Shown here: positions 16,040 to 22,514 of the stretch, one piece after another
Layout: the number at the start of each line of letters is the position of its first letter
Numbering within the stretch: the first letter of the stretch is position 1
Source of the DNA: Thermoanaerobaculia bacterium
GTDB taxonomy: Bacteria; Acidobacteriota; Thermoanaerobaculia; UBA5066; DATFVB01
Assembly (NCBI GenBank): GCA_035717485.1
Contig: DASTIQ010000039.1
Coordinates: forward strand, 1 to 37,328
Length of the DNA stretch: 37,328 nt
Reading direction: 5' to 3'
Translations under genes and position numbers: made by a program
Notes under the pieces: generated by a model
What the model saw: only the letters and a program-made list of their open reading frames with translations
What the model was told of the DNA's origin: nothing
The model's database searches: none

Positions 16040-16683
16040 GGGCCGGATTTCCAGCGCACGTGCACCGCGACGACTCCCTTCGGCTCGAGGATGCGGATGT
16101 TCGGCTCCGCCGCGAGCGTCGCCGAGGCGGTGAAGTCCCCGCTCCGGCCCGCGAGCGAGATGGGGTCGGTCGGAACGGCGTCGGTGCGGGCGACCTCGCT
16201 CTCCGGGCCGGCGATGCGCGCGCTCGGAGGGTCGACGCGGGCCGCGAACCTCGACGCGTCGCCGCCGCTGAACCGGGCGGCGATCCGGACCTGCTTCTGC
16301 GCGAGCCGCTCGAGCCGCACGCGGACGGTCGGCGGAGAGATCGACACGACCTCGAGATCCTCGGGGGCGTTGATGTCGTCGCCGCCGAGCTTGTAGATGC
16401 GTTCGCCTCCGGGCGCGTCCGAGAAATCCATCACCGCCTCCATCTTCGCGGGGTCGGCGATCCGGATCGCGTCGAAGGGGCCGCGCAGGCGGACGTCGAC
16501 GGTGTCCGGAACCGGCGAGGCGATCACCATGTTCGCCGGGACGTTCACGACCGTCAGGGGAATCACGTAGCCGCGCTCGGAGATGCGCTGGCGGCGCTGC
16601 CCGGAGAGGGAGAACCAGAGGAACCCGGCGAGCGCCAGCGCGAGGAGCTTCCAGCCGAGGTTTTCGAACAACCGCCGCTTCAC
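16036..16683 (-). CDS. ybbR: YbbR-domain membrane-anchored protein (CdaR-like)
   Basis: 215 residues: one N-terminal membrane helix (about 9-28, LGWKLLALALAGFLWFSLSG) and then a periplasmic or extracytoplasmic part with two YbbR-like beta repeats (PLTVVNVPANMVI...VDVRLRGP and VRIAARFSGGD). In Firmicutes the equivalent CdaR regulates the diadenylate cyclase CdaA. Both ends overlap neighbouring genes by 4 bases (GTGA), consistent with fixed stoichiometry. It has fewer YbbR repeats than the four-repeat Bacillus CdaR. Confidence 0.85.
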   Translation of the reverse strand: MKRRLFENLGWKLLALALAGFLWFSLSGQRRQRISERGYVIPLTVVNVPANMVIASPVPDTVDVRLRGPFDAIRIADPAKMEAVMDFSDAPGGERIYKLGGDDINAPEDLEVVSISPPTVRVRLERLAQKQVRIAARFSGGDASRFAARVDPPSARIAGPESEVARTDAVPTDPISLAGRSGDFTASATLAAEPNIRILEPKGVVAVHVRWKSGP

Positions 16684-17483
16684 GCGATCGACCCCTCCGG
16701 CGCGCCGCCCGAAGCGAGGTGCGACAGGATCTCCCGAAGCGCTTTACCGTCGAGCCCGTCCGTGAGCCGGCCGTCGCGCGCGAGTCCGATCGTGCCCCGC
16801 TCCTCGGAGACGACGATCGTCAGGGCGTCGGTCTCCTCCGAGATCCCGATGGCCGCGCGGTGCCGGGTGCCGTACTCCTTCGGAAGGCCGGTCCGCTGGG
16901 TCAGCGGGAGGAACGAGGAGGCGGACGCGATCCGGTGATTCGCGACGATCACCGCGCCGTCGTGGAGCGGCGTTCCCGGCACGAAGAGGTTGACGAGGAG
17001 CTCGTACGAGACCGCGGCGTCGAGCCGAACGCCGTTTTCGATGTACGTCTTCAGTCCGTCGCGGCGCTCCAGGACGATCAGGGCGCCGATCCGCTTGGCG
17101 GCGAGCGACGTCGCCGCGAGGACCACGTCGGTGACGAGGTCCTCCGTCTGCGGCGCATTGAAGAACGCGACGAGGGGATTGCGGCCGAACTGCTGCAGCG
17201 CGCGGCGGATGTCGGCGGCGAAGAGCACGATCACCGCGAACGGCAGGTAGAAGAGGACTTCCTTCAGCACGCCCCGGAGCGTCGGGAGCTTCAGCAGGAG
17301 CGCGAGCCAGTAGACCGCCAGGATCGCGAGGAGGCCCAGGATCATCTGGACGGCGCGGGTGCCGCGGATCAGAAGGAGGAGGTTGTAGATGATGACGGCC
17401 ACGACGACGATCTCGATCGCATCGCGCCACGTGAAGTGGAGCCGCGACAGCATTCCGACCCGCGAGGTCACCGTCGGGATCAT
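16680..17483 (-). CDS. cdaA: Diadenylate cyclase CdaA (c-di-AMP synthase)
   Basis: 267 residues. Three N-terminal membrane helices (within about 20-100) precede the DAC (DisA_N) domain, which makes c-di-AMP from two ATP. Catalytic motifs are intact: LHDGAVIV (DGA) and GTRHRAAIG (RHR), followed by ISEETDALTIVVSEE. The ATG at 17483 has TAGAAT 6 bases upstream and no Shine-Dalgarno sequence, so it is probably leaderless. The first three bases of that -10 box are the stop codon of folP. c-di-AMP usually controls potassium and osmolyte balance and cell-wall integrity; no c-di-AMP receptor is identifiable here. Confidence 0.94.
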   Translation of the reverse strand: MIPTVTSRVGMLSRLHFTWRDAIEIVVVAVIIYNLLLLIRGTRAVQMILGLLAILAVYWLALLLKLPTLRGVLKEVLFYLPFAVIVLFAADIRRALQQFGRNPLVAFFNAPQTEDLVTDVVLAATSLAAKRIGALIVLERRDGLKTYIENGVRLDAAVSYELLVNLFVPGTPLHDGAVIVANHRIASASSFLPLTQRTGLPKEYGTRHRAAIGISEETDALTIVVSEERGTIGLARDGRLTDGLDGKALREILSHLASGGAPEGSIA

Positions 17484-17489
17484 CGCCCG

Positions 17490-17495
17490 ATTCTA
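17490..17495 (-). promoter_or_regulatory. cdaA -10 box overlapping the folP stop codon
   Basis: Minus-strand TAGAAT, six bases before ATG 17483. Its TAG (17495-17493) is the folP stop codon. Confidence 0.5.
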
Positions 17496-18443
17496 GCCCG
17501 CATCGTCGCGATCCTCCGCCGCGGACGCGGCGATCGCCGCCTCCATCGCGGCGTACGCCTCCCGCGACGCGCCGGCCTCGGCGGCCGCGTCGGAGCCCGG
17601 ACTGCCCGCCCGGAGAGCGGCGAGAAACCGGGCCGTCGCGCCGACGTCGTGGACGCGGAGGACCGACGCGCCGCGTTCGGCGGCCGCGGCCGCGCAGGCG
17701 AGCGATCCGGCGAGCCGGAGCCGCGGGGGAGCCTCCCGAGGAACGCCGGAGTACCGCGCCGTGAAGCCCTTGCGCGACGCACCGACGACGACCGGGAAGC
17801 CCGGCTCGGAGAACCGCGCGAGGCGCGCGACGAGGAGCAGATTGTGGGCGGCGCTCTTGCCGAATCCGAGACCGGGATCGAGGGCGATCCGCTCGTCCGG
17901 GATGCCGGCCGCCCGCGCGCGCGCCGCCGCGTCGGAGAGGTGGACCGCGATCTCCTCGATCGGCGCGGAATAGAAGAGATCGTTCTGCATCGTGCGCGGA
18001 TCGGTTCCCCGCATGTGCATCAGAACGACGGCGGCGCCGGCGTCGGCCGCGACGGCGGCGGATTCCGGGTCGTGGCGGAGAGCCGTGACGTCGTTGAGGA
18101 TGGACGCGCCCGCGGAAAGCGCGGCCCGGGCGACCCGCGCTTTCCGCGTGTCGACGGAAACCGGCACCGCCGTCCCTCGCCGGAGCGCCTCGACCACCGG
18201 GACCACGCGCCGGATCTCTTCGTCCCCGGAAACCTCCCGGGCAGCCCCGTAGACCGGCGGCCGCGTCGATTCGCCGCCGACGTCGAGGATGGCCGCCCCC
18301 TCCTCGGCCAGCCGAAGACCGTGATCGACGGCGGCGTCCGGTGCGAGGAAAAGGCCGCCGTCCGAGAACGAATCGGGCGTCACGTTGACGATGCCCATGA
18401 GGACGGGCAGAACCCGGCCATCGAGGACGTCGCGCCACTCCAC
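17493..18443 (-). CDS. folP: Dihydropteroate synthase FolP
   Basis: 316 residues, slightly long because of a C-terminal Ala/Asp-rich tail (AAMEAAIAASAAEDRDDAG). Condenses 6-hydroxymethyl-dihydropterin pyrophosphate with p-aminobenzoate in folate synthesis; the target of sulfonamides. Motifs: MGIVNVTPDSFSDGG near the N-terminus, GGESTRPP, SVDTRKARVA, DPGLGFGKS and VGASRKGF. The GTG at 18443 has GATAAT 6 bases upstream and no Shine-Dalgarno sequence. The gene sits between ftsH and glmM, as in the E. coli ftsH-folP-glmM order. Confidence 0.95.
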   Translation of the reverse strand: MEWRDVLDGRVLPVLMGIVNVTPDSFSDGGLFLAPDAAVDHGLRLAEEGAAILDVGGESTRPPVYGAAREVSGDEEIRRVVPVVEALRRGTAVPVSVDTRKARVARAALSAGASILNDVTALRHDPESAAVAADAGAAVVLMHMRGTDPRTMQNDLFYSAPIEEIAVHLSDAAARARAAGIPDERIALDPGLGFGKSAAHNLLLVARLARFSEPGFPVVVGASRKGFTARYSGVPREAPPRLRLAGSLACAAAAAERGASVLRVHDVGATARFLAALRAGSPGSDAAAEAGASREAYAAMEAAIAASAAEDRDDAG

Positions 18444-18527: not shown

Positions 18528-20441
<1,914 letters not shown>

Positions 20442-20516
20442 GTGGTCACTCCTTGCCGGATGGGCGATCGTTCCGAGGTCCGGCGCCGGCGGCGCACACG
20501 GACGCCCGCCTGGACA

Positions 20517-20522
20517 AGCATA
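20517..20522 (-). promoter_or_regulatory. Possible ftsH -10 box
   Basis: Minus-strand TATGCT in the 99-bp gap between hpt and ftsH, giving a leader of about 70 bases; no clear -35. ftsH may instead be read through from hpt. Confidence 0.25.
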
Positions 20523-20540
20523 ACGGAAGGATGCCGGCTT

Positions 20541-21092
20541 TTATTGCCCGATTTCGCCCGTCGGAGCGGGAGAAACCGAGGCGATGTGCGGCAAATGGCC
20601 ATATCGGCCGGCGAGCTCCATGCCGTATCCCACGAGGTGATTCCGATCGGTCGAGTTGAACAGCACGTAGTCGACGAGGATCGACGAGCGTCTCTCGTGC
20701 GGCCGGTCGACGATCGCCGCGAAACGGATCGAGGCGGGATCGTCGGCGCGCAGTTGATTCATTAAATACGTCTCGATCACGCCGGTGTTGACGACGTCCT
20801 TCAGGACGACGACCTCCTTGCCGGCGAGCGACAGGGGTGTCGCGAAATCGATTTCGACGGATTCCTTCCCTTCGATGTCCCGGCGCGTGACGCTGATGAA
20901 CTCGAATCCGTGGGGCCTCTCGATCCGGCGGCAGAGGTCGGCGAGGAAGAAGGCGGACCCCTTCAGGAGAGCGAGGAGGACGAGAGGGCGGTCCTCGTAG
21001 TCGCGGGAGATCCGCCGGGCGATCTCGGACACGCGCGCGGCGATTTCCGCCTCCGAATGGCGCAGAGTCAACGTCGGTTGCGTGGAAACCAC
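20541..21092 (-). CDS. hpt: Hypoxanthine/guanine phosphoribosyltransferase-like protein with altered PRPP motif
   Basis: 183-residue purine salvage PRTase by fold and position (tilS-hpt-ftsH). [15 protein letters not shown] and the C-terminal block [18 protein letters not shown] match bacterial Hpt closely. The PRPP loop, normally VEDIIDTG, reads LKDVVNTG (Lys98, Asp99, Asn102), so the first acidic residue and the catalytic-base Asp are both replaced. The flexible SYG loop is also not recognisable ([12 protein letters not shown]). It may have low or changed activity, or a regulatory role. GTG at 21092 has TAGAAT 6 bases upstream, whose TAG is the tilS stop. Confidence 0.82.
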
Positions 21093-21098
21093 CGCCGG

Positions 21099-21104
21099 AT
21101 TCTA
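21099..21104 (-). promoter_or_regulatory. hpt -10 box overlapping the tilS stop codon
   Basis: Minus-strand TAGAAT, six bases before GTG 21092. TAG at 21104-21102 is the tilS stop. Confidence 0.5.
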
Positions 21105-22073
21105 CATCGTCCGCCGGGCGGTCACGACGCCGCCCCGGCTCCGGAAATCGACGCATCGGCCCGCCTGGAAGCGGAACGGCGCGCCCGAGCGGGCGAGTTT
21201 CTCGAGCGCGAGCAGCTCGGCGCGCGAGAGCGGCCGGGCCGCGGCCCGGTGGGCCATCGCGAGGAGCGCCCTCCGGAGGGCGGCCGCCGGAAGAGCCGCG
21301 AGGAGAGCGGCTTCGGCGCGAACCGAATCGTCGTCGCCCAGCTTCGGGAGGACGTCGCGGGCGAACAGCTCTTCCATCCATTCCCGGTCCCGGGAGAGCG
21401 CCTCGGCCGACGCGGCGAGGTTGGCGGTGACGGCGTCGCCGAATCGCCGCTCGAGGAGAGGGACGACCCTCCTCCGCACCCAGTTTCGATCGAACGACGG
21501 ATCGTCGTTGGTGGCGTCCCGGCGGTACGGGATCCGGCGATCGCGCAGATACCGCATGATCGAGGGGCGCGAAACGTCGAGGAGCGGCCGGACGACCCCG
21601 TCCTCCCGCCGCCTCCGGATGCCGGCGATCCCGGCGAGAGGCCGGCCCCGAAGGAGCGCGAGGAGCACGGTCTCCGCCGCGTCGTCGCGGGTGTGGCCGG
21701 TCGCGACGACGGAGGCGCCGACGCGCTCGCGCATCGCCGCGAGAGCGCGGTACCGGAGGTCGCGCGCGGCCTCCTCGCGCGACCGTCCCCGCGGAGGAGA
21801 GGGGAGCCGCTCGGAGAGGAACTCGAGATGCTGCCGGGCGCACCATCGCGCGACGAACTCCGCGTCCCGGCGCGACCGCTCGCCGCGCCAGCCGTGGTCG
21901 ACGTGGGCGGCGACGACCACGGTCGTGTGAGCGGGCGCGACGGCGGCGAGCGCCGCGAGGAGCGCCATCGAGTCCGGTCCGCCCGAGACCGCGGCCAGGA
22001 CCACGCCCGCCCGCGGGAGATCGCCGGCCTCGAAAGCGCGCGAAACGGCCGGTTCGGGCGCGTCGGACCGCAC
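21102..22073 (-). CDS. tilS: tRNA(Ile)-lysidine synthase TilS
   Basis: 323 residues. Attaches lysine to C34 of tRNA-Ile(CAU) so that it reads AUA. The PP-loop [12 protein letters not shown] near residue 30, then [29 protein letters not shown] and RPLLDVSR are diagnostic of the N-type ATP pyrophosphatase core. It is short because it lacks the full C-terminal domains of E. coli TilS (about 430 aa). The GTG at 22073 is chosen because TACAAT lies 6 bases upstream; the open frame extends further but across the divergent promoter. Confidence 0.92.
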
Positions 22074-22079
22074 GACCGG

Positions 22080-22100
22080 ATTGTATCCGTCGCGTATAAT
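22080..22100. promoter_or_regulatory. Back-to-back -10 boxes of tilS and the B12-binding gene
   Basis: Minus-strand TACAAT (22085-22080), 6 bases before tilS GTG 22073, and plus-strand TATAAT (22095-22100), 9 bases before ATG 22110. The boxes are 9 bp apart, so the -35 region of each promoter would lie over the other gene's start and the promoters should exclude one another. Confidence 0.5.
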
Positions 22101-22109
22101 CGCCGCCGC

Positions 22110-22514
22110 ATGGATCCGCTCCGCATCCTGATCGCGAAGCCCGGTCTCGACGGCCATGACCGGGGCGCGAAGGTCGTCGCCCGGGCGCTCCGGGACGCGG
22201 GGATGGAGGTGATCTACACCGGGCTCCGCCAGACCCCCGCGCAGATCGCGGCCGCCGCGATCCAGGAGGACGTCGACTGCGTCGGCATCTCGATCCTTTC
22301 GGGGGCGCACAACGTCCTCGTCCCGGAGGTGATCGACGAGCTCGCGGCGCGCGGAGGAGCCGATATCCCCGTCTTCGTCGGGGGGATCATCCCCGACAAG
22401 GACATCGAGGCCCTCGTCGCGCGGGGCGTCCGGAAGATCTTCCTTCCGGGATCCTCGACCCGCGACATCATCGCGTTCATCCAGGAGGAGATCGGACAGC
22501 GCGAACGGGCGTAG
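22110..22514 (+). CDS. Cobalamin-binding domain protein (methylmalonyl-CoA mutase small/C-terminal subunit type)
   Basis: 134 residues, a complete stand-alone B12-binding flavodoxin-like domain. The cobalamin signature [14 protein letters not shown] contains the axial-ligand His of the DxHxxG motif, and GISILSGAH and FVGGIIP are also typical. Such subunits pair with a separate TIM-barrel subunit in methylmalonyl-CoA or related mutases, which carry propionate-type substrates to succinyl-CoA. No large subunit or MeaB chaperone is in the window. TATAAT 9 bases upstream suggests a near-leaderless mRNA. A crotonase-like gene follows 25 bases on. Confidence 0.88.

Follow-up and report, generated by a model that had tools for sequence, protein, structure and literature searches.

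Between tilS and ftsH, the genome of a Thermoanaerobaculia bacterium carries an hpt-like gene whose product has an altered PRPP motif. Does this protein still act as an HPRT, and if not, for what is it retained at this position? Thermoanaerobaculia (Acidobacteriota) is a class of soil and sediment bacteria. We analyzed a 37,328-nucleotide stretch of DNA from one member (hereafter, the window) together with related genomes (G and L numbers below denote our genomes and loci, respectively).

The hpt-like gene and its altered active site

The genes tilS, hpt-like, ftsH, folP, and cdaA-like all lie on the minus strand of the window (Table 1), which agrees with the tilS-hpt-ftsH position noticed earlier from the letters of this DNA (the sequence-only reading). 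The names of the neighboring genes (tilS, ftsH, folP, and cdaA-like) are those we presume from their sequences. A scan of positions 20400-22250 for promoters and terminators found none, and the inverted repeats within the 99-nt hpt-ftsH intergenic region were short and unremarkable. TilS of the window is short, lacking the C-terminal RxGD..LK block that many relatives have; among the loci compared, the block and the hpt-like gene showed no consistent pattern of occurrence.

Table 1 Features of the hpt-like locus in the window.
Feature	Position	Strand	Remarks
Putative K-type HPRT-like pseudoenzyme gene	20541..21092	minus	183 aa, GTG start, between tilS and ftsH
Altered PRPP motif, residues 97-107	20772..20804	minus	signature throughout the class: Lys98, Asp99, and Glu107
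Loop I LLKG, residues 42-45	20958..20969	minus	retained in the window; replaced by VGG/LSG in some clade members
Flexible loop II, residues 68-84	20841..20891	minus	without the Ser-Tyr of HPRTs
C-terminal block, residues 152-165	20598..20639	minus	His152, Glu159, and Gly165 instead of Phe, Asp, and Arg
tilS, upstream	21102..22118 (start approximate)	minus	9 nt between its end and the start codon of the hpt-like gene
ftsH, downstream	18528..20441	minus	
hpt-ftsH intergenic region, 99 nt	20442..20540	minus	
folP, next in the cluster	17493..18443	minus	name presumed from sequence
cdaA-type diadenylate cyclase, next in the cluster	16680..17483	minus	name presumed from sequence

The window protein is a genuine HPRT homologue. 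It scored 54.3 bits with Pfam Pribosyltran (cut-off 26.3) and was approximately 31-34% identical to several bacterial HPRTs. AlphaFold2 predicted one PRTase domain (pLDDT 89.2, pTM 0.85; 19 aligned sequences), whose alignment to HPRT starts at about residue 5, and both the score and the predicted fold place it in the PRTase fold of HPRTs. Among the listed solved structures, which are limited to those ranked by Foldseek, the best match to the model was B. anthracis hpt-2 (3o7m; Z 25.4, rmsd 1.5 over 165 residues, 32% identity). The protein thus resembles the HPRT/Hpt family TIGR01203 in fold, identity, and gene position, whereas its score with this NCBIfam HGPRTase model was 111.7 bits, under the curated cut-off of 150, and the residues described below differ.

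Residues were compared by counting alignment columns. The PRPP motif, LKDVVNTG, departs from the HPRT consensus VEDIIDTGxT, with Lys98 in place of Glu and Asn102 in place of the catalytic Asp; the set of two PRPP-motif acids (E/D-D) plus the catalytic Asp was absent from the window protein and its clade. The sequence-only reading had pointed out the replaced acidic ligand and catalytic Asp as well as an atypical flexible loop, and the minus-strand ORF bore out both. Loop II lacked Ser-Tyr, and Tyr71 occurred in none of the 95 orthologues of the K type (see below), compared with Y in 95% of the unlinked intact copies; loop I kept its LKG. The same reading had taken the C-terminal base-binding block to be intact, which proved wrong: GYG is retained, but the columns of His152, Glu159, and Gly165 hold F in 93%, D in 100%, and R in 100% of the unlinked canonical copies. 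In HPRTs, we take Phe152 to stack on the purine, Asp159 to bind Mg2+, and Arg165 to contact pyrophosphate, roles partly supported by PMC6783271.

Judged by its residues, the window protein is not a functional HPRT. Because Glu98, Asp102, Tyr71, Phe152, Asp159, and Arg165 are all replaced, it very probably does not catalyze the HPRT reaction, and the loss of this activity is well supported by the alignment. We also considered binding of (p)ppGpp, for which HPRT uses Glu99, Phe152, and Arg165 (B. anthracis numbers), as described in PMC6783271. In the alignment, Glu99, Asp100, Lys131, Phe152, and Arg165 of the (p)ppGpp-HPRT site correspond to Lys98, Asp99, Arg130, His152, and Gly165 of the window protein. 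The protein is therefore unlikely to bind (p)ppGpp in the way known for HPRT, since the equivalents of Glu99, Phe152, and Arg165 are lost, and this candidate was rejected. The identity as PyrR was also rejected, the best NCBIfam PyrR model giving 24.3 bits against a cut-off of 218.

Conservation in the class and the second hpt

Orthologues with Lys or Arg at position 98 (K-type) were found in 95 of 148 Thermoanaerobaculia genomes (class taken from record titles); these form the upper score tier (E <= 2e-41, counted by hand), and all further matches listed had E values of 3e-38 or weaker. For the motif reading, a single lower-tier row (G486) was deliberately included, and it was canonical. All 95 K-type genes adjoin ftsH and/or tilS (both, 84; FtsH only, 9; TilS only, 2), counts that are affected by some loci being cut by contig ends, and the order tilS-hpt-ftsH was observed in 20 of 20 K-type loci viewed over several kilobases.

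Instead of the canonical E/D/D residues, the 95 orthologues have Lys (92) or Arg (3) at position 98, and the catalytic Asp102 is retained in one (G435). Asp99 and the new Glu107 are invariant, and position 104 is occupied by G (92) or A (3). Position 102 varied widely (H 37, S 18, R 12, A 12, T 10, N 2, V 2, D 1, and G 1). Of the Lys and Asn whose conservation among relatives had been at issue, Lys or Arg held throughout, but Asn did not, being found in 2 of 95. Arg165 was found in none and Asp159 in two, and the loop-I Lys44 was retained in 69 and lost in 26. The signature K/R-D-x3-[TS]-[G/A]-x2-E, common to all 95, is therefore more than chance, and an isolated mutation or assembly error was ruled out.

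Two kinds of variant were seen within the clade. The G435 copy (L266) reads VKDVVDTGVTE, combining Lys98 with the catalytic Asp, and is possibly an intermediate or a reversion. In a subgroup (L084-L087 and L089), the LKG of loop I is also lost (VGG), a further step from PRPP/pyrophosphate binding. A contig scan with KDVVxTG[VI]I gave 56 pattern matches, among which 18 loci were confirmed; all 18 were labelled Acidobacteria, Acidobacteriota, or Thermoanaerobaculia, although this single pattern is uninformative on other sequence variants outside Acidobacteriota.

The K-type gene was absent from 53 of the 148 genomes, 51 having lower-tier matches only and 2 having none. The surroundings of ftsH were inspected in 11 genomes without it. 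In nine (G007, G039, G048, G057, G280, G346, G354, G362, and G393; translated frames read by eye), a tilS frame immediately precedes ftsH without an intervening hpt, and the K-type gene is therefore dispensable there. In the other two, another gene precedes ftsH (G004) or no ftsH match was found at E 1e-100 (G008).

Where present, the gene is under purifying selection and not decaying, as judged from a dN/dS of 0.125 against a sister species, compared with 0.177 for TilS, 0.034 for FtsH, 0.074 for CdaA, and 0.305 for the canonical hpt (Nei-Gojobori method, our own script; one sister pair, in which the window-type proteins are 88% identical). A 49-nt stretch of the hpt-ftsH intergenic region showed one difference between the sister species (window and L014/L091; by eye), despite a dS of 0.5-0.8 for this pair and differences at approximately 38-48% of synonymous sites in the genes compared; an element upstream of ftsH therefore seems to be under constraint. 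As a separate observation, TGGCAYG...GCAT is conserved before ftsH, often with a surrounding inverted repeat, in 11 K-type loci (L033, L034, L035, L037, L039, L040, L041, L054, L060, L075, and L088; by eye). Its GG/GC spacing is that of the sigma-54 promoter consensus. This element was absent in the genus of the window.

If the K-type copy is not an HPRT, the reaction would be left to another gene. The window genome (3.8 Mb, 97% complete) carries an ordinary hpt on another contig (C320), with the motif VEDVVDTGRT, as the sequence-only reading had suggested checking. At least one further hpt-like match was found in 90 of the 95 K-type genomes, and the E/D-D-D acids were intact in the second copy of all 18 K-type genomes whose motif was read. 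No second hpt was found in five genomes (G003, G012, G452, G474, and G495), four of which are <=90% complete; the fifth, G003 (L027), is 96% complete and has the K-type copy with no canonical hpt found. Neither TilS nor FtsH lay near any of 20 canonical copies, of which 16 belong to K-type genomes and the other 4 to members of the class that lack the K type. Conservation of K/R98 together with a canonical hpt elsewhere makes a non-catalytic protein likely, as had been proposed.

Copies at the same position in other Acidobacteriota

Subsequently, copies at the tilS-ftsH position (slot copies) were examined outside the class. The non-class genomes were hand-picked (26 having two matches and 30 a single match; in most cases one genome per family), and the motif had been seen before picking in 11 of the 56 (G061, G064, G068, G115, G117, G128, G144, G160, G299, G319, and G400). 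An hpt with an intact motif often lies between tilS and ftsH (L064-L069, L070, L071, and L072), and slot copies that have lost PRPP-motif acids, in many different ways, are also frequent (for example, IGDVLD, ISDIID, VGTVID, VYGVMG, VSTVLD, LVGVTD, VQGLLE, and VGGILD). At least one of the three motif acids was missing in 12 of 31 slot copies versus 3 of 61 among the unlinked copies (p 8e-5 by Fisher test, which ignores kinship). These rows were de-duplicated from all fetched non-class loci, a non-random sample, and rows spanning under approximately 120 residues were left out.

An intact unlinked copy was present in seven genomes with a degenerate slot copy (G079, G087, G111, G127, G128, G256, and G299); the neighbor seen was TilS only in G128 and FtsH only in G079. 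A second copy was not found in the degenerate-slot genomes G064, G074, G080, and G104, and G077 has an intact slot copy plus a degenerate copy adjoining FtsH. Altered motifs with neither tilS nor ftsH seen nearby also occurred outside the class (L187 in G107, VGGILDTG; L190 in G067, ADNIIDTG; L220 in G160, VEDVAGTG).

Trees were inferred from 125 of 165 rows, after rows of <150 residues and near-duplicates (>=72% identical) had been dropped; the 'quick' method was used, and with several long branches among the slot copies the deep branching order is uncertain. When the motif and loop-I columns were left out, a single branch (SH-aLRT 99) separated the 33 K/R-type rows from all others, corresponding to one change. 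Motif loss took at least six changes of state on the best tree, and the starred branches force fewer. With all columns, a further group with support (98) comprised 68 mostly unlinked rows, and the slot rows lay outside it except one. An independent-pairs comparison of slot position and decay yielded 2-3 pairs only, so the association is not independent of ancestry.

Taken together, the alignments indicate a conserved subfamily of HPRT-fold pseudoenzymes whose genomic position is fixed, and the tendency of hpt copies at this position to lose enzymatic residues extends beyond the subfamily. No paper describing this subfamily was found among open-licence full texts. The sequence-only reading was mostly right, although the phenomenon is broader than a single sequence could reveal, and the regulatory role that it suggested is one we also infer.

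Possible roles of the protein

The nearest known parallel comes from B. subtilis, in which a complex of TilS and HprT binds DNA upstream of ftsH and activates ftsH (Lin et al. 2014, as reviewed in PMC8152036). The window locus has the same tilS-hprT-ftsH order, and its product may likewise be an HPRT-family protein with a second, non-enzymatic job. The two differ in that B. subtilis HprT is an active enzyme, whereas in the window genome catalysis has apparently moved to another gene; for the window protein, complex formation with TilS and DNA binding are putative.

By this analogy, we consider that the window protein is an HPRT-fold pseudoenzyme retained for a non-catalytic role at tilS-ftsH, likeliest as a partner of TilS in the control of ftsH, and we assign this reading a probability of roughly 0.45. 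The hpt copy of a tilS-hpt-ftsH cluster would be the ancestor of the window gene, encoding a protein with two jobs. The enzymatic job would have been left to the unlinked paralogue, and the window protein would no longer make IMP or GMP, because the second, canonical hpt supplies them. The retained job would be to help control ftsH expression as the TilS partner, as in B. subtilis. The reworked pocket (Lys98/Asp99/Glu107) would be either a structural salt-bridge core or a site for an effector, and Lys98 and Glu107 may pair in a salt bridge within the protein or contact a new ligand. That the copy at this position has decayed repeatedly in other lineages speaks for a role at the tilS-ftsH locus more than for any single ligand. 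On the other side, K98, D99, and E107 are so strictly conserved that they could instead mark a new site for catalysis or for a ligand, and the 53 class genomes without the gene also count against this reading, as do the five K-type genomes in which no second hpt was found. The K-type family is acidic (median net charge -5), giving no hint of DNA binding.

A less likely explanation is that the altered pocket binds a nucleotide or phosphorylated metabolite, not PRPP and a purine, with TilS, FtsH, or transcription as the target of its signal. The invariance of K/R98, D99, and E107 around the former ribose-phosphate site in all 95 orthologues suggests that the pocket is under selection and not drift. 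PyrR combines the PRTase fold with a regulatory role, which is putative in the window protein. PMC8789054 describes Bacillus PurR as a case in which a PRTase pocket became purely regulatory, without enzymatic activity. PurR, however, has a winged-helix DNA-binding domain, whereas the window protein is a single PRTase domain with no fused DNA-binding domain. The lost equivalents of the (p)ppGpp-contacting residues, which are those named in PMC6783271, also argue against a sensor. So do the other slot copies, which decayed differently and therefore kept no common ligand site.

An active phosphoribosyltransferase (or hydrolase) with altered chemistry or substrate is improbable. It would account for the new invariant pair of Lys or Arg and Glu and for the mostly retained D99, loop-I Lys (K44), and phosphate loop [TS]G; HPRT of T. 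cruzi with its invariant Asp substituted, including to Asn, still folds, as seen in solved structures among the matches listed, and these mutants reportedly have partial activity. Human PRTFDC1 (2jbh), which we take to be an HPRT paralogue altered at the catalytic Asp that keeps low HPRT activity, is eukaryotic, unlike the window protein. An active enzyme in the window is difficult to reconcile with the joint loss of Glu98, Asp102, the loop-II Tyr, Phe152, Asp159, and Arg165, and with the loss of the loop-I Lys as well in 26 of the 95 orthologues.

Slightly less probable still is a non-catalytic subunit that hetero-oligomerizes with the canonical HPRT and tunes its activity. The predicted HPRT fold and the co-occurrence of at least two hpt-like copies in 90 of the 95 genomes would suit it, but the genes are unlinked, 51 class genomes carry hpt copies without the K type, and the fixed tilS-ftsH position is left unexplained. 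A decaying remnant of a redundant hpt, a pseudogene in progress, would fit the presence of the canonical copy and the absence of the gene in part of the class, but is hardly credible given the dN/dS of 0.125, the frames open in relatives across the class, and the invariant new residues, and conservation already disfavors it.

It is possible, although doubtful, that the hpt of the Acidobacteriota slot was repeatedly turned from an enzyme to a non-catalytic regulator, physically separating from catalysis a moonlighting role described to date in B. subtilis, and that in the Thermoanaerobaculia subfamily the K/R-D-x3-[TS]G-x2-E pocket reads a signal, linking tRNA-modification or nucleotide state to FtsH membrane quality control. 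A conserved pseudo-HPRT fixed at this site across the class would also caution against reading purine salvage from every 'hpt' annotated at the tilS-ftsH locus of Acidobacteriota. Such a protein would amount to a separation-of-function experiment made by nature, bearing on the puzzling finding that HprT and TilS together control ftsH.
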